A DNA stretch of 64,000 nt from Fictibacillus arsenicus (GTDB taxonomy: Bacteria > Bacillota > Bacilli > Bacillales > Fictibacillaceae), in contig NZ_CP016761.1 in assembly GCF_001642935.1 (NCBI RefSeq), positions 1,178,001-1,242,000 of the forward strand, given 5' to 3'. Under the pieces are notes generated by a model, which was given only the letters and a program-made list of their open reading frames with translations, was not told the DNA's origin and made no database searches. Below are positions 20,519 through 37,170 of this stretch, in pieces (the stretch's first letter is position 1; each line of letters begins with the position of its first letter). The position numbers and the translations under genes are program-made.

Positions 20519-20558
20519 GTAGAATTAAACTAGATAATGTTTGAGGGGAGAAATTAAC

Positions 20559-21914
20559 ATGTTATCTAAGCATTCTACTGAAGGACGTCATCAAGTAACT
20601 TTAGCAGCTCTCGACGAGCTTGTACCTCAGGATCATTTAGTACGTAAAATTGATCAAGTTATGGACTTTGATTTTATTTATGATGCAGTAAAACATACAT
20701 ATTCACTAGATAATGGCAGACCGAGTGTAGATCCAGTTGTTCTTATCAAAATGGTCTTAATCCAGTACCTGTTTGGTATTCGCTCCATGCGTCAAACGAT
20801 TAAAGAGATTGAAACAAACGTCGCTTATCGATGGTTTTTAGGCTATGACTTTAGTGAGAAGATACCTCATTTTTCAACCTTCGGTAAGAACTACGCACGC
20901 CGTTTTCACGATAGTGATCTCTTTGAACAAATCTTCTACCGTATTCTTCGTGAAGCGATGAATCATGGATTGGTTGATCCAACTGTTGCGTTTATTGATT
21001 CCACACATGTGAAAGCAAACGCCAATAAAAAGAAGTTCGATAAGAAAACAGTTCGTGTTGAAACGCGTAGCTATCAGAACTTATTAGAAGAAGAAATTAA
21101 TGTTGACCGTGAGGAACACGGAAAAAAGCCATTACCCCCTCAAACGAAGATTGAAACTAAAGAAGTGAAAATAAGTACGACTGATCCTGAGAGTGGCTAC
21201 TATGTGAAGGATGAACGAGAGAAATTGTTTGCCTATTCCTTTCATACAGCCAGCGACTCGAGAGGATTTATATTAGGAAGTTTAGTCACAGGAGCCAATG
21301 TTCATGACAGTCGAATGCTCGAGCCATTGATGAATCAGTTGATCGAAAATGTAGGAACACCAACTGCCCTTGCCGTTGATGCAGGATATAAAACGCCAGC
21401 TATCGCTAAGTATTTAATAGATCAGGAAATCCGTCCCGTGATGCCATATACCAGACCCAAAACAAAAGATGGTTTCTTTAAGAAATACGAGTACGTCTAC
21501 GATGAATACTATGATCAATACATATGCCCACAAGGTGAGATTTTATCGTATAGAACGACGACCCGTGAGGGCTATCGTCAATACGCTTCCAATCCTTTGA
21601 AGTGCCAAAACTGTCCAGTACTCTCTCAATGTACACAGAGCCAACAGCACATAAAGATGATTCACAGGCACATCTGGGAGGATTATCTCGAAGAAGCCAA
21701 TCACCTCCGACATACTGAAGAGAATAAAGAAATGTATGCAAAGCGAAAAGAAACGATTGAACGTGTTTTTGCGGATGCAAAAGAAAAGCATGGTATGCGA
21801 TGGACGAAGCTCAGAGGGCTTAAAAAAGTGTCCATGCAGGCGATGCTTACTTTCGCTGCCATGAACCTTAAAAAACTGGCAAACTGGACATGGCGAGAGC
21901 CATGCCCAGCTTGA
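20559..21914 (+). CDS. IS1182-family transposase
   Basis: About 451 residues. The N-terminal DUF772-type domain (LAALDELVPQDHLVRKIDQV ... PVVLIKMVLIQYLFGIRSMR) is followed by a DDE domain. The acidic residues are visible in FIDSTHVKANANK, ALAVDAGYKTPA and RKETIERVFADAKEKHGMRW. A Cys cluster (CPQGEI ... CQNCPVLSQC) sits between the second and third. GAGGGGAG precedes the ATG at 20559. No frameshift is seen, so it should be functional. Confidence 0.94.
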   Translation: MLSKHSTEGRHQVTLAALDELVPQDHLVRKIDQVMDFDFIYDAVKHTYSLDNGRPSVDPVVLIKMVLIQYLFGIRSMRQTIKEIETNVAYRWFLGYDFSEKIPHFSTFGKNYARRFHDSDLFEQIFYRILREAMNHGLVDPTVAFIDSTHVKANANKKKFDKKTVRVETRSYQNLLEEEINVDREEHGKKPLPPQTKIETKEVKISTTDPESGYYVKDEREKLFAYSFHTASDSRGFILGSLVTGANVHDSRMLEPLMNQLIENVGTPTALAVDAGYKTPAIAKYLIDQEIRPVMPYTRPKTKDGFFKKYEYVYDEYYDQYICPQGEILSYRTTTREGYRQYASNPLKCQNCPVLSQCTQSQQHIKMIHRHIWEDYLEEANHLRHTEENKEMYAKRKETIERVFADAKEKHGMRWTKLRGLKKVSMQAMLTFAAMNLKKLANWTWREPCPA

Positions 21915-27381: not shown

Positions 27382-28203
27382 GTGTCTTATTGTAAAGTAG
27401 AGAAAGCGAATATCTATTATGAAGAAATCGGATCTGGAATGCCGATCCTCATGATCCACGGATTCTCACCTGACCTACGTTTGATGAAAGGATGCATGGA
27501 ACCGATCTTTCAAGAGAGGGATGGATACAGACGCATCTATATCGACCTGCCAGGAATGGGGCAGACGAAAGACTATGATACTATTCAAAACTCGGATGGG
27601 ATGCTCGAAGCTGTTATTCAGTTCATTGAAACTATATTGCCCAACGAGGCATTCTTGATTGCAGGAGAGTCATATGGTGGTTACATAACAAGGGGAGTAA
27701 TTGCGAAAATGCCTGAGCGTGTAATGGGTGCAGCGTTTATCTGTCCGATGATCATTCCTGATAAAAACATAAGAACACTACCGGAGCATGCCAACATAGA
27801 GATTGATGAAGAATTCCTCGCTACATTAACAGAAGAAGAAAGAGAAGACTTTAAAGGAATTCATGTGAAGTTAGATGAATACACGTGGAGAAGGTACAAC
27901 GAAGAAGTCGTAGTCGGAATGAAGATAGCAGATTCGGCATTCTTAGAAAAAATCTCACAAGCCTATGGATTTACGTTCCAAATTGATCAAGAAGTTTTTC
28001 AGAAGCCAAGCGTGTTTCTGGCGGGAAGGCAAGACCATATTACAGGTTTTAAAGACGTGTATGATTTACTTGATAAATATCCTCGGGCCACATTCTCTAT
28101 ACTAGATTCGGCAGGGCATAATTTGCAGATTGAGCAGAATAAACTTATAAATGTACATATTACTGATTGGTTAGAGCGGTTTCTAATGGGAGTAAAGAAA
28201 TAA
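27382..28203 (+). CDS. Alpha/beta hydrolase
   Basis: 273 residues. MLIHG-type oxyanion region (MPILMIHGFSPDLRLM), nucleophile elbow GESYGG with Ser near residue 98, acid region (VFLAGRQDHITG) and catalytic His in DSAGHNLQ, giving a full Ser-Asp-His triad. Substrate unknown. AAAGGAGTGG precedes the GTG. A decayed copy of its last 20 or so codons lies at 37083, beyond the acyl-CoA module. Confidence 0.9.
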   Translation: MSYCKVEKANIYYEEIGSGMPILMIHGFSPDLRLMKGCMEPIFQERDGYRRIYIDLPGMGQTKDYDTIQNSDGMLEAVIQFIETILPNEAFLIAGESYGGYITRGVIAKMPERVMGAAFICPMIIPDKNIRTLPEHANIEIDEEFLATLTEEEREDFKGIHVKLDEYTWRRYNEEVVVGMKIADSAFLEKISQAYGFTFQIDQEVFQKPSVFLAGRQDHITGFKDVYDLLDKYPRATFSILDSAGHNLQIEQNKLINVHITDWLERFLMGVKK

Positions 28204-28420: not shown

Positions 28421-30307
28421 ATGAAACTAGGAGTAATATCACCATATCCTGAATTCACAAATTTAGTTAGAGAGATTTCAATTGATATGGATGTTCCGTT
28501 AATAGTCAAAGAGGGTGCATTACAAAGAGGTTTGGCCGCTGCGAATCTCATGATAGAAAAAGAGAATGTAAGTGCAATAATAGCAAGAGGAGCAACAGCT
28601 GATTTATTAGAAAGTAAGTTGAAAATTCCAATCATTAAAATTACAGTAAATAATTTTGACCTGCTAAAAACCTTCCAAACTGCTAAACAAATTTCATCCG
28701 AAATTGTTTTTATCGATCATTATGAGAATTATTCAATGTATGATATTGCTTTTATTGAGAAATTATATTCTGTAAACATAGTATTAAAACGATACCAAGA
28801 TGAACAAGAAATTGCAGACATTATGCAACAGTTGAAACAACAAGGAAAGCAGAAAGTAATTGTTGGAACAGCGCATTGCATGGAAAGAACAGCAAAGAAA
28901 TTAGACTTATCATGTTTTGTAATTAAATCTACTAAGGAAGTTATGATAGAGGCATTACATAGGGCGTTTGAAACTGCACGTCTATACGAGAGAGAAAAAT
29001 TAAGACAAAACCATCTTCAAACCATTATTTCTCATGCATTTGATGGTGTTATTGCGACTGATATTCAAGGTAATATTAGCGTATTTAATAACGTGGCAAG
29101 TGAATTATTAGATGTTAAATCACATGAACTGATCGGAAGAGAATTAAAAAAGGTACATCACCCAAAACTGAAAAAATTGTATGGAGATGGTTCTGAAGTT
29201 AGAAAGAAGATTTCAAGCTTCGGAAACCAAAGATATGTGGTTAACAGAATTCCTTTAGAAGGCGAAAGTATTGTAATTACTTTTCAAGAGACTAATAAAG
29301 TTATTGAACAAGATTCACAGTTACGGAGAAACCTGCATAATAGAAGGTTTTACGCGAAATACACATTTTCAGATATTCTTTATAAAAGTGCTGAAATGGA
29401 ACAAGTGATTGAATTATCCAGATTCTATAGTAAAACAGATAAGAGTGTGTTAATTACGGGAGAGAGCGGGACAGGAAAAGAACTTTTCGCCCAAAGTATA
29501 CACAATGAAAGTAATCGCAACAAAGGTCCTTTTGTTGCGATAAATTGTGCGGCACTTCCAAAAGACCTACTTGAAAGTGAACTATTTGGATATGAAGATG
29601 GAGCATTTACAGGGGCAAAAAAAGGCGGGAAACCGGGACTTTTTGAGATGGCTCATGAAGGTACTCTATTTTTAGATGAAATTGGAGAGCTTCCAATCGA
29701 TTTGCAAGCAAGGCTTCTCCGTGTTCTTCAAGAAAGAGAAGTGATGAGAATTGGGGGAGAAAAAATAATTCCTATTAATGTTCGAATTATTTCAGCAACT
29801 AATAAAGACCTTAAAGCTTCAATAAAAGATAATAATTTTAGGGAAGATTTATATTTTAGACTAAATATATTGCGAGTGATTATTCCCCCGCTGCGAGAAA
29901 GAAAAGATGACATCTTTGTTCTAGTGAATCATTTCTTACAAAAGAATGGCGAGGTAAATTATTTGTATGATGAGGACTTTCTAATGTTTATCAAAAGTTA
30001 TGATTGGCCGGGTAATGTTCGTGAATTAGAAAATGTCATTGAAAGAATGACTACTGTAGGTAAAGTCTCTAATGATATGAAGAAAATCTTACTCGATCAT
30101 CCTATTGGAATTCTGAACCAAACAGAAAAAAGTCTTCAGGTAAAAGGAAGTATTGAGCTAACACTAGGTACTTTAGAAGAGATGGAGAATCAAATTATTT
30201 ATCATTTCCAAAAATCCTATCAAGGAAATAAGCAAGAAATGGCTGAAAAACTCGGATTAAGTCGTACAACACTATGGAAGAAAATCAAAAAATTAGACAT
30301 TTTATAA
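28421..30307 (+). CDS. Sigma-54-dependent activator with PrpR N-terminal domain
   Basis: 628 residues. A PrpR-type sensory domain (residues about 1-190) is followed by a PAS domain (about 200-300; [20 protein letters not shown]). The AAA+ domain (about 330-560) has Walker [15 protein letters not shown] at about 394-399 for contacting sigma-54, Walker [12 protein letters not shown], and an arginine-rich region. A Fis-type helix-turn-helix ends the protein ([20 protein letters not shown]). PrpR-type domains sense small acids or CoA-pathway intermediates. It almost certainly activates the -24/-12 promoter at 30419, just downstream. AGGGGGGATC precedes the ATG. Confidence 0.95.
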
Positions 30308-30312
30308 TAAAT

Positions 30313-30346
30313 GTTCATATTTTAAACAAACGTTCACTTTATAAAC
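30313..30346 (+). promoter_or_regulatory. Candidate upstream activator sites for the PrpR-type regulator
   Basis: Two 15-base boxes of the form GTTCA-N5-TAAAC start at 30313 and 30332, 19 bases apart. They lie about 90 bases before the sigma-54 promoter, a usual place for enhancer sites. Binding is inferred from position and repetition only. Confidence 0.5.
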
Positions 30347-30371
30347 GCTGAATGTCAGAATATTAACATTA

Positions 30372-30402
30372 CAAAAGTCTTCTCCCTTGAGAAGGCTTTT
30401 TT
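30372..30402 (+). terminator. Terminator of the activator gene
   Basis: AAGTCTTCTC ... GAGAAGGCTT stem with a short loop and six T. It separates the regulator transcript from the operon. Confidence 0.82.
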
Positions 30403-30418
30403 ATGCGTTAATAAACGT

Positions 30419-30435
30419 TGGCATGGAACTTGCAT
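30419..30435 (+). promoter_or_regulatory. Sigma-54 (-24/-12) promoter of the acyl-CoA operon
   Basis: TTGGCATGGAACTTGCAT: the GG and GC dinucleotides are exactly 12 bases apart, matching TGGCAC-N5-TTGCA closely. It ends 37 bases before the first ATG and lies right after an activator of the matching class. Confidence 0.9.
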
Positions 30436-30472
30436 GATAAATAATTGTATTAAAAAAATTGGAGGGATTTTA

Positions 30473-31441
30473 ATGAATTCAGATCACTTTTTACATCCAA
30501 CACAGCCAGGTGAAGCAAATTTTGAGAAGGTTAAATATGAAAAGAAGGACATGGTTGCAACCATTACAATCAACCGTCCGGAAGTTTATAACTGTTTAAA
30601 CTTCCAGACATTAAGAGAAATGACAAGAGCATTCGAACTAGCATCTTGGGATGATGAAGTCGGAGTAGTTGTATTAACAGGTGCTGGGGATAAAGCATTT
30701 TGTACGGGTGCAGATATGAAGGAACAAAACAATGATATTTTGGAACGTCCAAGGAACTATTGGAAATGGATGGGGGTATTCATTGAAGCACATGAAAAAC
30801 TTATGAACATTGGAAAACCTACAATAGCTAGACTTAATGGGATTACTGTAGGTGGCGGAAATGAATTTAACATGAACTGTGATTTAGCTGTTATGGCAGA
30901 TCATGCTTACATCAGACAAGTTGGAAACTCTCATGGAAGTGTAGCTGCTGGCGGAGCAACACAATGGTTGCCGATAATGGTAGGTGATCGTAGAGCAAGA
31001 GAGATTCTTTGGTTGAATGAAGAAATTAGTGCAGAAAAAGCTCTTGAATGGGGTTTAGTAAATGAAGTAGTCCCTATGAGCCAATTAGATGATGCAGTGG
31101 ATCGAATGGCAAAGAAATTATTAAATAAACTGCCAGAATGTGTTCGTTATACAAAAGAACAAACAAATTATTGGAAGAAGATGTCCTTGAACCAAACTGT
31201 AGGACATGCGCGTGATTGGCTGACGGTTCATACAAGTGCATTTGAAACACATGAAGCAATGAGAGCCTTCAATGAGAAAAGAAAACCTGATTACATGATG
31301 CTCAGAAACAGAGCTGCAAATGGAGACTCTTCTGAACACTTATGGGGAGCACCAATGGTTGAATGTCATGAATGCGGAACAAAGGATCTGCCAGAACACT
31401 TTAATCATTGTGGGAAGTGTGGAAGTCCGTTAACAAAGTAA
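30473..31441 (+). CDS. Crotonase-family enzyme with C-terminal zinc ribbon (MenB/BadI-like)
   Basis: 322 residues. Crotonase core: ITINRPEVYNCLNFQTLREM, oxyanion loop GAGDKAFCTGADMKEQ, ARLNGITVGGGNEFN, then HGSVAAGGATQWLPIMVGDR followed by RAREILWLNEEISAEKALEWG. The last stretch looks more like MenB and the ring-opening hydrolases BadI/BamA than ordinary enoyl-CoA hydratase. It ends in a four-Cys ribbon, CHECG and CGKCG separated by about 11 residues, which is unusual for the family. First gene after the sigma-54 promoter; GGAGGG lies 6 bases before the ATG at 30473. The reaction could be hydration or C-C bond hydrolysis of an acyl-CoA. Confidence 0.85.
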   Translation: MNSDHFLHPTQPGEANFEKVKYEKKDMVATITINRPEVYNCLNFQTLREMTRAFELASWDDEVGVVVLTGAGDKAFCTGADMKEQNNDILERPRNYWKWMGVFIEAHEKLMNIGKPTIARLNGITVGGGNEFNMNCDLAVMADHAYIRQVGNSHGSVAAGGATQWLPIMVGDRRAREILWLNEEISAEKALEWGLVNEVVPMSQLDDAVDRMAKKLLNKLPECVRYTKEQTNYWKKMSLNQTVGHARDWLTVHTSAFETHEAMRAFNEKRKPDYMMLRNRAANGDSSEHLWGAPMVECHECGTKDLPEHFNHCGKCGSPLTK

Positions 31442-31481
31442 TGTATAAATATTACCAATTAATGTATAGGGGGTTATTAGG

Positions 31482-32852
31482 ATGAGGCTTTCTGTTTCAG
31501 AAAGAATTGCTAGTTGGTACAGCCGGTATTTTCCTCATGATTTTATTTTCGCAATAATTTTGACCCTTTTAGCTATTCTCAGCGCATATGCATTTACTGC
31601 AAGTTCTATTGGAGAAGTATTGGATGCTTGGTTTAATGGTATTCCCATGTTATTTACTTTCGCTTTTCAGCTCATGTTTACTTATGCAGCTGCATTAGTG
31701 TTAGTTGACACACCGGTAGTTCAACGGTGGATTATAAAAGCTGCAAACACCATTAAAACACCTATGGCTGCTTATATTATCACTGGAGTTTTTGGTGCTC
31801 TGACTTCTTTTTTAGGGTGGTATATAGGACCTGTTGTCACTTCAATTTTTGCTCGAACAGTCGGTAAACAAGTTAAAGGAGTCGATTATCCGTTATTAGC
31901 GTCAATAGCTTATTCTTCTTTTACCATTTCTCTAACGGGTATTTCAGGTACAATTCCACTTTTCGTATCAACAGAAGGTGAACTGAACAATCAATTATTT
32001 GGTGGTATTATTCCACTTGATCAAACAACATTTTCAACCATAAACATGGTATCTTGTTTTGCTATTGTCATGGTGACAACACTTATTTATTACTTTGTTG
32101 CAAGAAACAAGAAAAAAATTACTACATTTCAAGATTTAGCAATCGAGAATGAAGAGGTTGCGAGTAGTGTAGAACCTGAAATAACTTCGGTTAACACTAA
32201 CACGAACAAAGCGTTTGCTGACAAAGTGAATGATTTTAGACCAATGATTTTAGTTATAGGCTTAATAGGATTCCTATACCTTTTCTATTATTTTTCACAA
32301 AAAGGTATGGCTGGATTAAATTTAAATACAGTTGCATTTATTGCGCTAGTCATGGGCTTGTTAGTTCAGAAGGATGCTGTCAGTTATTCAAAGTCTTTTT
32401 CCAAAAACTTAATTTCAACTGGTTCAATCGGTCTTCAATTTCCGCTTTATGGAGGAATAGCATCCGTATTAATGGTTTCAGGTTTGGCAGGGAAACTCAC
32501 CGACTATATTGTAAGCGTTTCCACTGAAACGACTTTTCCTATTCTAACGTTTCTTGTAACTGGTTTTATTAATTTGTTCATACCTTCTGCCGGATCACAG
32601 TTTACAGCTACTGCACCATTTTTTATACCAGCTGCAGAAGCGCTTGGAGTAGAGATGCCAAGAGCTGTTCTTGCCATTACTTACGGAGACATATGGACGA
32701 ACTTAGTCCAGCCATTTTGGACATTGTTATATTTCCCTATATTAGCTGCAGGTACGAGATTGCAGGTAAGAGATTTCTTAGGATACTGTTTGCCCATCTT
32801 ATTGGCTGTAGGTGTAATTTGGATTGTAGCTTTAATGTTCCTTCCTATTTAG
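31482..32852 (+). CDS. Short-chain fatty acid transporter, AtoE family
   Basis: 456 residues with about ten to eleven membrane segments. The N-terminus (SERIASWYSRYFPHDFIFAI), FGALTSFLGWYIGPVVTSIF, and the C-terminal FINLFIPSAGSQFTATAPFF are typical of the AtoE transporter family. It should carry a short carboxylate into the cell, supplying the ligase next to it. TAGGGGGTTATTAGG lies before the ATG. Confidence 0.9.
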   Translation: MRLSVSERIASWYSRYFPHDFIFAIILTLLAILSAYAFTASSIGEVLDAWFNGIPMLFTFAFQLMFTYAAALVLVDTPVVQRWIIKAANTIKTPMAAYIITGVFGALTSFLGWYIGPVVTSIFARTVGKQVKGVDYPLLASIAYSSFTISLTGISGTIPLFVSTEGELNNQLFGGIIPLDQTTFSTINMVSCFAIVMVTTLIYYFVARNKKKITTFQDLAIENEEVASSVEPEITSVNTNTNKAFADKVNDFRPMILVIGLIGFLYLFYYFSQKGMAGLNLNTVAFIALVMGLLVQKDAVSYSKSFSKNLISTGSIGLQFPLYGGIASVLMVSGLAGKLTDYIVSVSTETTFPILTFLVTGFINLFIPSAGSQFTATAPFFIPAAEALGVEMPRAVLAITYGDIWTNLVQPFWTLLYFPILAAGTRLQVRDFLGYCLPILLAVGVIWIVALMFLPI

Positions 32853-32883
32853 TTAATAGCAATAGTTGAAAGGTGGTTATAAA

Positions 32884-34293
32884 GTGAGTTTTCCGTACTA
32901 CCATAAAACGATTGACTGGAATAAGCTCGTCTCGGAGTATGAACCTCCTCAAGAATTTGTAGAGGGAACTTGGAAATGGAGCCGTGACAGAATTGAGTAT
33001 ACACAGCTCCAACGGTTAAAAGAAACATTAAATAAAGGCAGTGAGATTCCTTTTTATCAAATTCTGTGGGAGAAACATGGTTTCTCCCCAGAAGATGTAC
33101 AGTCTTTGGATGATATGTACAAAATCCCCATTTATACAATAGAAGATATTCGAGATAGCATCGAACGAAAACCGCCATTTGGTGATTATCAAAAATATCA
33201 TTTTTCTGATGGAACTCACACACCCTTGAGATTCTTTACAAGTGGTGGAACTACTGGTACACCTAGACCGACCATTTATTCCCAGTGGGATAGAGAAGTG
33301 GGGGCTATCCTAAGTGCTCGAACGTTCTACCTTCAGGGTATTAAACCTGGTGATGCCGTAATTAATGCTTGGTCTTATTCAACTCATAATGCAGCTTGGA
33401 TAATGGATCATGCATTGTGGCATTGGTTAGGATGTACTCCCATAACGACAGGAACAGGGAATGTAACGCCTACTGAAAAACAGGTTGAATTTGCAAAGAC
33501 TTTTGGTGCTTCAGCGATCATTGCAACATCAGATTATTTATTACACATCGCTGAAACTGCAAAGAAAATGGGGTATGACCCGAAGACAGATTTTAATTTA
33601 AGAACACTATCCGCATTTGGAAATACGGCGCCAGTAGAAGAAGCATTCGGAATCCCTGTTTATGATTCATATGCGTTTCATGAAGTTCAATATGTAGCAG
33701 CGGAATGTCCAGCTAAACAAGGACTGCATATTTTTGAAGATTCCTTTATCGTTGAAGTCGTTGATTTTGAGACAGGTAAACCGCTTCCGCCAGGTCATAG
33801 AGGAAACATCGTGGTAACAGCTCTTTATAAGACAGGAACCCAGCAGATCCGTTATAACATTCAAGACATCTCTGCTCTCTATGAAATGGTGCCTTGTGCC
33901 TGCGGCAGTCTGCATAAACGGATGGAATATTTCCAAGGTCGAAGTGACACTATGGTGAAACTGCGCGGTATTAATGTATGGCCGGAAGCATGCGGGAAAA
34001 TAGTTTCTGAAGATAGCAGAACAAATGGTGAATATTACTGTTATGTAGAAAAGGTTATACAAGATGGAAAACCAGCAAAAGACGAAATGACGATATTGGT
34101 TGAAAAAAGAAGTGTTGATCAACATGATGAGTCATTAAAACAAGATTTAGAAGAGATTTTAAAAAGAAAAATCGGTGTAAAAATTCATGTTCAAATTGTA
34201 GATACGGATTCATTAAAAGAATTAACAGGACATGGTCATAGAGCAAAATTAAAACGGTTCGAGGATCGCCGAAAAGAGGGGATGGGTGTATGA
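32884..34293 (+). CDS. PaaK-like acyl-CoA ligase (adenylate-forming)
   Basis: About 469 residues, like phenylacetate-CoA ligase: RLKETLNKGSEIPFYQILWE, P-loop FFTSGGTTGTPRPT near residue 119, WSYSTHNAAWIMDHALW, and the C-terminal swinging domain after YFQGRSDTMVKLRGINVWPE. It should activate a carboxylate with ATP and CoA. GAAAGGTGG fits GTG at 32884; the frame is open to 32866. Its stop overlaps the next ATG by 4 bases. PaaK relatives often act on aromatic or cyclic acids, so phenylacetate-like or alicyclic substrates are as likely as short fatty acids. Confidence 0.88.
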   Translation: MSFPYYHKTIDWNKLVSEYEPPQEFVEGTWKWSRDRIEYTQLQRLKETLNKGSEIPFYQILWEKHGFSPEDVQSLDDMYKIPIYTIEDIRDSIERKPPFGDYQKYHFSDGTHTPLRFFTSGGTTGTPRPTIYSQWDREVGAILSARTFYLQGIKPGDAVINAWSYSTHNAAWIMDHALWHWLGCTPITTGTGNVTPTEKQVEFAKTFGASAIIATSDYLLHIAETAKKMGYDPKTDFNLRTLSAFGNTAPVEEAFGIPVYDSYAFHEVQYVAAECPAKQGLHIFEDSFIVEVVDFETGKPLPPGHRGNIVVTALYKTGTQQIRYNIQDISALYEMVPCACGSLHKRMEYFQGRSDTMVKLRGINVWPEACGKIVSEDSRTNGEYYCYVEKVIQDGKPAKDEMTILVEKRSVDQHDESLKQDLEEILKRKIGVKIHVQIVDTDSLKELTGHGHRAKLKRFEDRRKEGMGV

Positions 34294-35342
34294 AAGCCGT
34301 TGTACTTAACTCACATGGACCAATTGAACATTTAAACATTTCAAAAGACCAATCTTTACAAGACCTCCAATATGGAGAGATAAGACTAAAGATTATGTAT
34401 TGTGGTTTGAATCATTTGGACTTATGGCTTCGGAAAGGAGGAACAGGTGATAAGATAACACTGCCTCGTATACCCGGAAGTGATATCGTCGGAATTATTG
34501 AGTCATCGAAAGGTGAAGGCGTTTTTAATTTATCTAAAGGAGATACGGTATTAGTTTATCCAGGTACATCTTGCGGGGATTGCACATACTGTCAAAAAGG
34601 AAGAGAGACTCTTTGTAAGGAGTTTAAGATAATCGGTTATCACATAGATGGCGGTTATTCCGACTATATAAATGTTCCTGCAAAAAACGTAGTTAAAATT
34701 GAAGCTCAAAATCTAGACGCATGGGCTGCCGTACCCGTTTCGTATATAACTGCCTGGAATGGTTTAGTGACGAAAGGGAATCTAACTATGTTTGATACAG
34801 TAGTTGTTTGGGGTGCTACTGGCGGATTAGGATATGCAGCCCTGACCATTGCTGAAGGCTTTAGTGCGAAAACGATAGGGATAGTAGGATCAAAAGAAAA
34901 GGAACTGTTTTTAAGAGAAAGAGGATATAAAGGACATATCGTTGTAAGGTCAGAGAACTTACAAAAAGAGATTAGGGAACTAACAGATAATCAGGGTGTT
35001 GATATCGTTCTTGACCATGTAGGACAAGAGACATGGAAAGAAAGCTTGAAGATGTTAAAACGTGGAGGACGATTGGCCTTTTGTGGAGTGACAACTGGTC
35101 ATCAAGCTGTTACTGACCTGCGTTATATCTTAGGTAAACAGTTAACGATTCATGGATCATGGATGGGAGACATGAATGATTTTAAAGAAGTTGTTCAATT
35201 TATTGAAGTGAATGAAAACTTACCTTACATTTGGAAGACGTATAGTCTTGATGAAGTTAGAGATGCACACCAAGTGATGGAAGAACAAAGACACATTGGA
35301 AAAATCGTATTAAAAGTGAATGAAGAGGAAAAGGCTATATGA
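34290..35342 (+). CDS. Zinc-type MDR alcohol dehydrogenase / enoyl reductase
   Basis: 350 residues. GroES-like half with LNHLDLWLRKGGTGD, PGSDIVGIIE and a four-Cys structural-zinc loop (CGDCTYCQKGRETLC); Rossmann half with VVWGATGGLGYAALTIAEGF. LNHLD-type members include acryloyl-CoA and quinone-type reductases, and the 6-hydroxycyclohexenecarbonyl-CoA dehydrogenase of the benzoyl-CoA route belongs to the wider group. Within this operon an acyl-CoA-level redox step is likely. It overlaps both neighbours by 4 bases (ATGA). Confidence 0.87.
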   Translation: MKAVVLNSHGPIEHLNISKDQSLQDLQYGEIRLKIMYCGLNHLDLWLRKGGTGDKITLPRIPGSDIVGIIESSKGEGVFNLSKGDTVLVYPGTSCGDCTYCQKGRETLCKEFKIIGYHIDGGYSDYINVPAKNVVKIEAQNLDAWAAVPVSYITAWNGLVTKGNLTMFDTVVVWGATGGLGYAALTIAEGFSAKTIGIVGSKEKELFLRERGYKGHIVVRSENLQKEIRELTDNQGVDIVLDHVGQETWKESLKMLKRGGRLAFCGVTTGHQAVTDLRYILGKQLTIHGSWMGDMNDFKEVVQFIEVNENLPYIWKTYSLDEVRDAHQVMEEQRHIGKIVLKVNEEEKAI

Positions 35343-36190
35343 ACGTAAATCATATATTGGTGGTCGGATCAGGTGTAATGGGAAGAGGTATTGCTTATTC
35401 AGCTGCATTAGGAGGATATCAAGTAACATTATGCGATATTTCTCAAAGCGCTATAGAAAACGCAAAGAGTGAAATTGGACATTTATTTTTAAAGGCGGTG
35501 GATAGCGAAAGGCTTACCTCGGAAAAAGCAGAACATTTTTCAAGCAAATTAAACTATTCTACTGAACTTGAAAAGAGTGCATCTTCTGCAAATTTTGTTA
35601 TAGAAGCCGTGCCGGAAGTTATGTCCATTAAGAAAGAAATCTTTGAAAAGTTAGATCAATACACTTCGACTGAGACGATTTTGGCTACCAATACTTCCAC
35701 TATGAGTCCAACCGAAATAGGTTCATATACGAACAGGGCTGACAAAATAATCGCTATGCATTTTTTTAACCCGGTTCATAAGATGAAGCTTGTTGAAATC
35801 ATTAAAGGACTTGAAACAAGTGAAGAAACACTGCGTGTTACACAAGAAATAGCTCATGCAATGGGAAAAGAAACGGTTGGTGTAAATGAGTTTCCCGGTT
35901 TTGTTACTAGCCGTATTAGCAGTTTAGTAGGTAATGAAGCTTTTAACATGCTGATGGAGGGGGTAGGTTCACCAGAAGAAATTGATAAAGCCATCGAACT
36001 TGGATTGAATTATCCTATGGGACCATTTAAGTTAGGTGACTTAGTAGGTCTTGATACACGACTGAAAAATCTTGAATATCTTCATAAAACTTTGGGTGAA
36101 AAATACAGACCAAGCCCGCTTTTAGTGAAATATGTGAAGGCAGGAAGGCTAGGAAGAAAATCAGGAAAGGGCGTTTATAATTACACATAA
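35339..36190 (+). CDS. 3-hydroxyacyl-CoA dehydrogenase
   Basis: 283 residues, the length of HBD/PaaH enzymes. NAD site VVGSGVMGRGIAYSAALGGY, catalytic region ATNTSTMSPTEIGSYT, AMHFFNPVHKMKLVEIIKG with the catalytic His, and VNEFPGFVTSRISSLVGNEA. It oxidises 3-hydroxyacyl-CoA to 3-oxoacyl-CoA with NAD. The start overlaps the previous stop. Confidence 0.94.
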   Translation: MNVNHILVVGSGVMGRGIAYSAALGGYQVTLCDISQSAIENAKSEIGHLFLKAVDSERLTSEKAEHFSSKLNYSTELEKSASSANFVIEAVPEVMSIKKEIFEKLDQYTSTETILATNTSTMSPTEIGSYTNRADKIIAMHFFNPVHKMKLVEIIKGLETSEETLRVTQEIAHAMGKETVGVNEFPGFVTSRISSLVGNEAFNMLMEGVGSPEEIDKAIELGLNYPMGPFKLGDLVGLDTRLKNLEYLHKTLGEKYRPSPLLVKYVKAGRLGRKSGKGVYNYT

Positions 36191-36207
36191 TGTGAAGGAG
36201 AACGTCT

Positions 36208-36984
36208 ATGAACTTTGAATATTTGTTATTAAATGTTGAAGATCATATTGGAACGATCACAGTAAATAGACCAGAAAAAAGAAACGCGATGAATTCAGAA
36301 AGCTGGATTGAACTTCGCGATGCAGTGAGTTATTTTAATAGGATGCAAGAAGTAAGGGTAATTGTAATCACAGGAGCAGGTGACCAGTCATTTGTTTCTG
36401 GTGCTGATATTGAGTGGTTAAGAGATCGTCAGCCTCTAGATATTTATGGATCTGCTGTCCAAGATGTCCTGCTTAGTGTCTATCAATCGAAAAAACCAGT
36501 TATTGCAGCTATCAATGGATATGCATTAGGTGGGGGCTGCGAACTTGCAACTGTATGCGATTTTAGGATAGCTAGTGAGCATGCAAAATTTGGCCAGCCT
36601 GAGATCACCCTTGGTATCTTGCCAGCAGGTGGAGGAACCCAACAGTTAACGAGATTGATTGGACTTCCAAGAGCCAAAGAATTAATATTAACGGGAAAGA
36701 TAATTAATGCCCAGCAAGCTTTTGAATATGGATTAATCAATGAAATTACATCAAAAGAAAATTTCAAGGACAGAATTAAGGAGTTTGCTAAGTCACTAGC
36801 TAGTAAGCCTCCTGTAGCATTGATGTTGGCTAAGATTGCCTTAAATGAAAGTGTGACAACTGATTTAAATGCAGGATTGGCACTTGAAAAATCGTTACAG
36901 GCAATTCTATTCAGTACTCAAGATAAAATAGAAGGGACAACAGCTTTTTTAGAAAAAAGAGAAGCTCAATTTATAGGGAAGTAA
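36208..36984 (+). CDS. Enoyl-CoA hydratase
   Basis: 258 residues. ITVNRPEKRNAMNSESWIEL, oxyanion loop TGAGDQSFVSGADIEWL, INGYALGGGCELATVCDF with the first catalytic Glu in place of a standard position, and FGQPEITLGILPAGGGTQQL with the second Glu. It adds water to a 2-enoyl-CoA and should feed the dehydrogenase just upstream. GAAGGAG precedes the ATG. No thiolase or acyl-CoA dehydrogenase gene is in the operon, so the pathway must borrow these or use a different chemistry. Confidence 0.92.
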   Translation: MNFEYLLLNVEDHIGTITVNRPEKRNAMNSESWIELRDAVSYFNRMQEVRVIVITGAGDQSFVSGADIEWLRDRQPLDIYGSAVQDVLLSVYQSKKPVIAAINGYALGGGCELATVCDFRIASEHAKFGQPEITLGILPAGGGTQQLTRLIGLPRAKELILTGKIINAQQAFEYGLINEITSKENFKDRIKEFAKSLASKPPVALMLAKIALNESVTTDLNAGLALEKSLQAILFSTQDKIEGTTAFLEKREAQFIGK

Positions 36985-37082: not shown

Positions 37083-37170
37083 ATAATTTGCAGACTGAGC
37101 AGGGTAAACTTTTGAATGTATATATTAGTGAGTGGTTGGACGGCTGGAAAATTATAGTGAGCAAATATTA
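37083..37170 (+). pseudogene. Remnant of the 3' end of the alpha/beta hydrolase gene
   Basis: 37083-37138 aligns with 28118-28173. In frame it reads NLQTEQGKLLNVYISEWLDG against NLQIEQNKLINVHITDWLER. No upstream part of the gene is present. It is followed by a terminator. Confidence 0.8.

Follow-up and report, generated by a model that had tools for sequence, protein, structure and literature searches.

A sigma-54-controlled operon of Fictibacillus arsenicus headed by a zinc-ribbon crotonase, a probable ring-opening hydrolase related to Oah/BamA

Gene content of the locus

We analysed a locus in a 64-kb window (the whole stretch of DNA under study) of the soil bacterium Fictibacillus arsenicus, whose genome is a single contig of 4.06 Mb. 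It consists of a gene for a sigma-54 activator and, behind it in the same direction, an operon of six genes, the first of which encodes a crotonase named here CrtA. All seven open reading frames (ORFs) were confirmed between positions 28421 and 36984, and their domains were verified. Among named relatives, Fictibacillus nanhaiensis (99%) and F. barbaricus (98%) come closest at the locus. The activator (28421..30307, + strand) contains a PrpR_N sensor, a PAS domain, an AAA+ domain and a Fis-type helix-turn-helix (PF06506, 109.5 bits; PF00158, 237.2 bits).

The operon genes also lie on the + strand. CrtA (30473..31441) is a zinc-ribbon crotonase, sister to Oah/BamA and, judged by its sequence, probably a ring-opening hydrolase; an in-frame ATG stands upstream at 30434, but GGAGGG at 30461 suits the start at 30473. 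It is followed by a protein of the short-chain fatty acid (SCFA) transporter family (31482..32852; PF02667, 311 bits; TIGR00366, 304.4 bits against a cut-off of 575.75), a PaaK-like acyl-CoA ligase (32866..34293; 193 bits with the PaaK model TIGR02155, below the cut-off of 646.3) and an MDR oxidoreductase without catalytic-zinc ligands, probably an enoyl or enone reductase (34290..35342). The last two genes encode a 3-hydroxyacyl-CoA dehydrogenase of the type found in the organism's own phenylacetate (paa) operon (35339..36190; NF006722, 444.9 bits, above the cut-off of 429) and a second crotonase, an ordinary enoyl-CoA hydratase that keeps the two catalytic Glu residues (36208..36984). Neither an acyl-CoA dehydrogenase nor a thiolase is encoded by these six genes, and a first-pass annotation of this DNA had been correct on this point for the operon itself.

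Nine of the ten Bacillales loci L031-L040 (L numbers denote loci and G numbers genomes) have the full set of seven genes, and the gene order within their operons is unchanged; the activator is divergent in L038. In Bacillus piscicola (L034:9998-13279), the activator, CrtA, the dehydrogenase and the hydratase are kept, and the transporter, ligase and MDR genes are missing; a gap of about 670 bp is found where these three would sit. A thiolase gene lies directly behind the operon in five of the ten relatives, and the three of these thiolases that were compared are 66-71% identical to that of the F. arsenicus paa operon. The missing thiolase, which had been taken for a feature of the pathway, is therefore not one, because half of the relatives have the enzyme in place.

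The operon is patchy in occurrence. Counting the own genome, CrtA matches occurred in 6 of the 34 family genomes (E <=1e-80), and in 3 of 397 order-level and 5 of 398 phylum-level genomes (E <=1e-70). A stretch of 58 bp from the 3' end of an alpha/beta hydrolase gene (28118-28175) recurs with 84% identity immediately behind the operon, at 37083-37140, possibly as a scar of the operon's arrival.

Control region

Two imperfect 15-bp palindromes of the form GTTCAN5TAAAC, putative upstream activator sites with no strand assigned, lie at 30313..30327 and 30332..30346. An intrinsic hairpin terminator in the gap between activator and operon (30373..30402, + strand, z -4.25) is followed by a pattern match to a -24/-12 (sigma-54) promoter, TGGCATGGAACTTGCA (TGGCATN5TTGCA; 30419..30434, + strand). 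The activator, two enhancer-like boxes, terminator, -24/-12 promoter and six genes listed in the first-pass annotation are all present.

The palindrome-pair pattern matched once in the entire 4.06-Mb genome, and its reversed control gave no match. At least one palindrome was found in 10 of 11 Bacillales upstream regions (none in L033), with 0.01-0.04 expected per region from single-base shuffles, for a pattern that was picked after the sequences had been inspected. The strict -24/-12 pattern occurs three times in the window and, taken alone, is thus weak proof of a promoter. TGGCAYN5TTGC stands at the same position in 10 of the 11 upstream regions, that of the window counted, and the eleventh (L039) has ATGC. 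The sigma-54 gene (rpoN) was found in the genome, and the activator scored 417.1 bits with the PrpR model TIGR02329, under the cut-off of 499.2. A bacterial enhancer-binding protein with an AAA+ domain, a -24/-12 promoter, upstream palindromes and rpoN in the same genome together point to a sigma-54 regulon. The Salipiger plasmid pPABY4 (L147:3506-7801) has genes for a crotonase and a Zn-ribbon OB-fold protein adjoining a sigma-54 regulator and an rpoN of its own.

Family position of CrtA

We compared CrtA with curated family models. It scored 170.7 bits with the Oah/BamA model TIGR03200 (cut-off 464.45; 201.3 bits for the Heliophilum relative and 187.9 for that of Lokiarchaeota L101), 181.4 bits with the BadI model TIGR03210 (cut-off 467.6) and 178.7 bits with the MenB model TIGR01929 (cut-off 342.7). 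Of 61 aligned CrtA rows, 60 have a C-terminal CxxC...CxxC (Cys4) zinc ribbon, and the remaining row is truncated by a contig end. In the predicted structure, the predicted local distance difference test score (pLDDT) is 90-94 for the ribbon (residues 291-320) and below 50 for a part of the active-site region (residues 158-161). The best sequence match in the PDB is 2iex, dihydroxynaphthoic acid synthetase.

In a tree of 56 rows, CrtA and Oah were sisters (99/93), BadI and MenB formed a separate clade (97/86), and ordinary hydratases fell outside (100/99). CrtA and Oah were again joined (100/97) in a 48-row tree, made from the same set minus the longest branches and two Oah rows under the cut-off. 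Approximately unbiased (AU) tests of CrtA placed with BadI/MenB gave p values of 0.047 and 0.019. These results suggest that CrtA represents a separate zinc-ribbon family, a member of neither the Oah/BamA, the BadI nor the MenB model; Oah may stand beside or inside it. The first-pass annotation had named firm grouping of the first crotonase with ordinary short-chain enoyl-CoA hydratases as the sequence half of the evidence that would refute its reading, and no such grouping was seen. An ordinary beta-oxidation operon was rejected as a description, since CrtA falls outside the ordinary hydratases in both trees.

Active site of CrtA

Glu131, at the Glu144 position of crotonases, is present in all 61 CrtA and all 7 Oah rows, two of which score 365-366 bits, under the Oah cut-off; the residue is Val in BadI (three rows) and MenB (two rows). 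The Glu164 position is Gly in CrtA (Gly151) and in the Oah, BadI and MenB rows. At the BadI/MenB Asp position, neither CrtA nor Oah has Asp (Oah row L111 has one a residue further on), and the BadI motif GSVD reads GSVA in CrtA. CrtA shares the pattern of Oah, namely Glu at the first position, Gly at the second and no Asp, and does not have the two catalytic Glu residues of an ordinary hydratase, which the second crotonase possesses. Because the BadI/MenB Asp is absent, CrtA is BamA-like and not BadI-like. Of the proposed BadI/BamA-like ring-opening hydrolase, the Oah/BamA-type active site was borne out; the likeness to BadI fell away with the Asp, and the protein is in neither family model. 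The name 'BadI homologue' was rejected on its model score under the cut-off, the missing Asp and the retained Glu. Oah is described as a bifunctional hydratase and ring hydrolase (PMC5742626), and the Glu retained in CrtA and Oah would suit the hydration half of such a reaction.

Gene neighbourhoods of CrtA relatives

We scanned named genomes by tblastn (E <=1e-3) and analysed the best 80 of 405 stretches, with 53-99% identity. CrtA relatives among these 80 include those of Chloroflexota, Acidobacteriota, NC10, Zixibacteria, Armatimonadetes, Melainabacteria and anaerobic Bacillota, and, in the archaea, of Thermoplasmata, Lokiarchaeota and Heimdallarchaeota. Neighbouring genes were labelled by tblastn against representatives, with family models run on examples; the 'bcr' labels rest on similarity.

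In 26 of the 80 loci (type A), benzoyl-CoA-reductase-type genes lie near the CrtA relatives, which are about 60% identical: 12 bzd, 12 bcr-type and 2 bam-type. The order in Lokiarchaeota L094, L101 and L109 is CrtA, Dch-like, Had-like, BzdN, BzdO, activase, BzdQ-type and ferredoxin, and BzdN, BzdO and BzdQ of L101 scored above their family cut-offs. The same holds for BzdN and BzdO of Heliophilum and for BcrB and BcrC of L052, where the BcrA-like and BcrD-like proteins fell just short. In Peptococcaceae L061, L065 and L066, thiolase, CrtA, BzdN and BzdO are followed by a Had-like dehydrogenase (273 bits in L061, cut-off 338.65) and a hydratase. Two amidohydrolases (adenine-deaminase-like and Amidohydro_2) are carried beside the Had-like gene in the bzd operons of L061 and L065.

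Type B comprises nine EthD loci and six PaaK-like loci among the 80, none with a reductase. Examples gave PaaX 254 bits against 264.55 and PaaK 600 against 646.3 (L041), PaaA-like proteins at 122-131 against 280 bits (L042, L047), 3-hydroxyacyl-CoA dehydrogenases (L042), and a PaaG-like crotonase at 305.6 against 345.15 with EthD and aldehyde dehydrogenase (L080). In L041, L042, L047 and L080, which are compact and phenylacetate-like, a divergent PaaA-like protein stands alone and the second 3-hydroxyacyl-CoA dehydrogenase has half the usual length, so that these clusters may represent an unusual epoxidase arrangement. The Bacillales operon forms type C; its CrtA groups with type B rows in the 56-row tree (100/99).

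Residues 80/85 differ between these contexts. They are G/Y in all 20 type A rows and all 7 Oah rows, and A/Q in all 11 Bacillales rows and in nine of the ten type B rows; among 20 further rows, whose context is unclassified, 18 have G/Y and 2 have A/Q. The A/Q motif of the Bacillales argues against naming the Fictibacillus CrtA simply an Oah.

Probable replacement of Oah by CrtA

Among the 23 non-Bacillales CrtA genomes searched, Oah scored over its cut-off in just one (Tectomicrobia, G830) and BzdN in 12. None of these 12 genomes, several of which are metagenome bins of unstated completeness, has Oah or BadI over the cut-off, and G539 is a thirteenth genome with BzdN and CrtA and without Oah over the cut-off. 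In the phylum sample of 398 genomes, four other CrtA genomes and seven Oah-type genomes (five over the cut-off) did not overlap, in small numbers. From these neighbourhoods and counts, we consider it quite likely that CrtA is a hitherto unrecognised ring hydrolase that replaces Oah in the type A relatives. Lone BadI/MenB-like crotonases with a GSFDPG motif occur in two Lokiarchaeota among unrelated ORFs, away from reductase genes (L161:6126-6917, L162:5762-6553); a third Lokiarchaeota genome (G824) has no BadI/MenB-like gene of that kind.

Other enzymes of the operon

Within the own genome, the operon 3-hydroxyacyl-CoA dehydrogenase is most similar to that of the paa operon (66%; the second-best match has 47%). 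In that paa operon, PaaA, PaaC and PaaX scored over their cut-offs, PaaK reached 637.7 against 646.3 and the 3-oxoadipyl-CoA thiolase 604.3 against 605. The thiolases of two scanned relatives had 3-oxoadipyl-CoA thiolase as their best family (577 and 549 against 605). Thiolases of this type act on dicarboxylyl-CoAs, the class of compound that hydrolytic ring opening yields. The operon ligase is 33% identical to the own paa ligase, and both ligase and transporter are distant from characterised families.

The MDR protein keeps the four structural Cys residues. NHLD and GSD/GAD are found in all ten operon MDR proteins at the positions that hold CHTD and GHE in all four Had-like proteins. The MDR protein of the window scored 72.4 bits in the Had comparison, below the cut-off, and 161.5 and 166.6 bits with the acryloyl-CoA reductase and quinone reductase models, both under the cut-offs. 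The MDR family assignment of the first-pass annotation stands; its designation as a dehydrogenase is doubtful because the catalytic-zinc ligands of Had-like proteins are missing, and a reductase appears more likely.

The BzdN model (1e-20) had no match in nine of nine Bacillales genomes, in which class II (BamB) reductases were not searched, and no oxygenase is encoded in the operon. The label 'benzoate operon' was rejected on the BzdN result for these nine genomes. Of the unsaturated, cyclic or aromatic acid suggested earlier as the substrate, a ring-opening set of enzymes fits; benzoate itself is unlikely because BzdN is unmatched in these nine genomes and the operon has no oxygenase. The BadI model found no match of about 330 bits in the own genome, unlike in four other operon-bearing Bacillales genomes, and its best match there is CrtA; the F. 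arsenicus strain may lack menB. Elsewhere in the window, upstream of the locus, a transposase-like ORF (20541-21914) was recognised by eye.

Proposed pathway

Our preferred reading, to which we give a probability of about 0.6, is that the operon activates a small cyclic, probably unsaturated acid and opens its ring to a dicarboxylyl-CoA, with CrtA as the ring hydrolase and no class I benzoyl-CoA reductase. From the gene content, conserved control sites, CrtA family position, active-site pattern and neighbourhoods that were computed, we infer the catalytic steps, their order, the substrate and the effector as follows. The SCFA-family carrier would take up the monocarboxylic acid, and the PaaK-like ligase would convert it to the CoA thioester. 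The MDR protein might reduce or adjust a C=C bond, a step that is uncertain. The second crotonase would hydrate the ring at the position adjacent to the carboxyl carbon, where the 3-hydroxyacyl-CoA dehydrogenase would then oxidise it. CrtA would add water to the enone and then hydrolyse a ring C-C bond as in Oah/BamA, giving a dicarboxylyl-CoA that the dehydrogenase, then a 3-oxoadipyl-CoA-type thiolase, would process. As the Oah product is a 3-hydroxy-dicarboxylyl-CoA, no acyl-CoA dehydrogenase would be needed before these two enzymes, so a ring-opening set would explain the missing acyl-CoA dehydrogenase. The PrpR_N domain of the activator would probably sense the acid or its CoA ester, and the activator, bound at both palindromes, would turn on the sigma-54 promoter.

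Several observations weigh against this reading or against a role of CrtA in place of Oah. CrtA reached no curated family cut-off among its 25 best families. The AU tests disfavour a place with BadI/MenB, though not strongly, and CrtA as a single clade apart from Oah has weak support in the 48-row tree (56/87), with long branches in play. The nearest relatives of the Bacillales CrtA sit in paa-like clusters and not beside benzoyl-CoA reductases, and the A/Q motif in place of G/Y may mark a change of ring substrate, so that the Bacillales ring may differ. The SCFA-family transporter also fits linear acids, and a Had-type dehydrogenase was rejected for the MDR protein for want of the catalytic-zinc ligands of Had-like proteins. 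Among the 80 loci, 44 outside the Bacillales have no reductase gene in the examined flank, many of them on short contigs, and L108 is counted as bcr-type by a weak 30% match alone. The Dch-like and Had-like proteins of L101 are under their cut-offs (171.5 against 292.5; 237 against 338.65, with Had as best family), and one of the two BcrB-like proteins scanned passes, that of L051 scoring 306.9 against 486.55. In Paradesulfitobacterium L054, Had-like, hydratase and thiolase genes occur with no reductase nearby, and its genome has no BzdN over the cut-off. Oah and CrtA occur together in the Tectomicrobia genome. BadI/MenB-like matches of 309-337 bits, under the BadI cut-off, were found in 9 of 32 genomes, and 2 of the 12 genomes with BzdN and CrtA (Lokiarchaeota G822 and G823) have a BadI/MenB-like crotonase that carries the Asp motif, scores 320-324 of 467.6 bits and could be a ring hydrolase. 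These Lokiarchaeota genes slightly lower our confidence in the replacement of Oah, which we still hold more firmly for type A than ring opening by the Bacillales operon, itself likely from its sequence features.

Alternative functions

A role of CrtA as in the bad pathway, hydrolysing 2-oxocyclohexanecarboxyl-CoA from cyclohex-1-ene-1-carboxylate to pimelyl-CoA, is an unlikely alternative and the best placed of those considered. A ligase, a hydratase, a 3-hydroxyacyl-CoA dehydrogenase and a ring hydrolase make up the minimal bad set minus the acyl-CoA dehydrogenase; the bad-ali route has been described (PMC9795900). However, CrtA does not have the Asp of BadI, has a Glu absent from BadI, and reaches 181.4 of 467.6 bits with the BadI model. 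Moreover, pimelyl-CoA needs a further dehydrogenase, whereas 3-hydroxypimelyl-CoA does not, according to the same source.

Somewhat less probable is a phenylacetate-like branch, in which CrtA of this subclade would open a ring that arises from phenylacetyl-CoA chemistry, either of the oxepin type (C-O) or seven-membered, and the form found in Bacillales would serve a related shunt product. The closest non-Bacillales CrtA genes lie beside PaaK-, PaaX-, PaaA- and PaaG-like, 3-hydroxyacyl-CoA dehydrogenase, thiolase and aldehyde dehydrogenase genes, and the Bacillales clade joins the CrtA rows of paa context (100/99), nine of ten of which share its A/Q motif. The Bacillales operon, however, has no epoxidase subunit or aldehyde dehydrogenase, the F. 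arsenicus genome already has a separate paa operon (PaaA, PaaC and PaaX over cut-off), and the two ligases are just 33% identical.

Least probable is a linear unsaturated acid of the acrylate or crotonate type, handled by the ligase, a hydratase, the MDR protein as acryloyl/crotonyl-CoA reductase and the 3-hydroxyacyl-CoA dehydrogenase; CrtA would then act as a hydratase or hydrolyse a thioester. The transporter family, the PrpR_N sensor and the sub-cut-off scores of the zinc-ligand-less MDR protein with acryloyl-CoA and quinone reductase models would suit it, but CrtA resembles Oah both in the trees and at the active site, it has no second catalytic Glu, its relatives are located in ring-degrading clusters, and the dehydrogenase is closest in the genome to that of the paa operon.

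Implications

The literature describes Oah/BamA as highly conserved among all bacteria with this type of benzoate degradation (PMC5742626) or as conserved in all but R. palustris (PMC9795900), and field surveys of anaerobic aromatic degradation use its gene as a marker (PMC3794298). A study of Asgard bins, Lokiarchaeota included, reported oah missing and bcr genes in one Thorarchaeota bin (PMC8072921). Studies of metagenome-assembled genomes name 'oah' in Chloroflexi and other genomes without sequence detail (PMC5736913, PMC6472368), so the CrtA family may already carry automatic oah labels. No zinc-ribbon ring hydrolase is described in the titles and abstracts found by searching an open-licence library, a scope that leaves subscription papers mostly outside, and the family is apparently undescribed.

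If ring opening by ring-hydrolysing CrtA proteins is true, surveys with the bamA marker could miss many organisms, and CrtA could explain the oah reported missing in Asgard bins. For Bacillus-like bacteria, it would point to an acid-degrading route that we found assigned nowhere, with a ready-made, predicted inducible promoter. More tentatively, and with slightly less than even confidence, zinc-ribbon crotonases might be a third class of ring-opening CoA hydrolases in many bacterial and archaeal phyla, and the 'missing' Oah of many organisms with a benzoyl-CoA reductase, Asgard archaea among them. The Bacillales might then have recruited the A/Q branch into a benzoyl-CoA-reductase-free, oxygen-independent, sigma-54-controlled pathway for a natural alicyclic acid new as a growth substrate.

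Comparison with known systems

The locus resembles PrpR-type sigma-54 regulons in the PrpR_N and AAA+ domains, the activator gene adjoining the operon and the -24/-12 promoter, but its activator is below the TIGR02329 cut-off and the operon is not a methylcitrate cycle. With the lower paa pathway it shares a similar dehydrogenase and, in three relatives, similar thiolases (66% and 66-71% to the own paa-operon counterparts), whereas it has no epoxidase, isomerase or aldehyde dehydrogenase and is governed by a sigma-54 activator instead of PaaX. MenB supplies the best PDB match of CrtA (2iex), although CrtA lies outside the MenB clade, has no Asp and stays under the cut-off. BadI shares the crotonase fold and the Gly at the Glu164 position, and CrtA is 36-41% identical to the seven badI-annotated plasmid genes listed; unlike BadI, CrtA has the Glu and not the Asp, falls outside the BadI/MenB clade and scores below the cut-off. 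Oah/BamA differs from CrtA by an insert of some 50 residues, seen in the alignment around residue 203, and has no C-terminal Cys4 zinc ribbon, but it is the sister of CrtA in both trees, and next to bzd, bcr-type and bam-type genes CrtA relatives stand in its stead.

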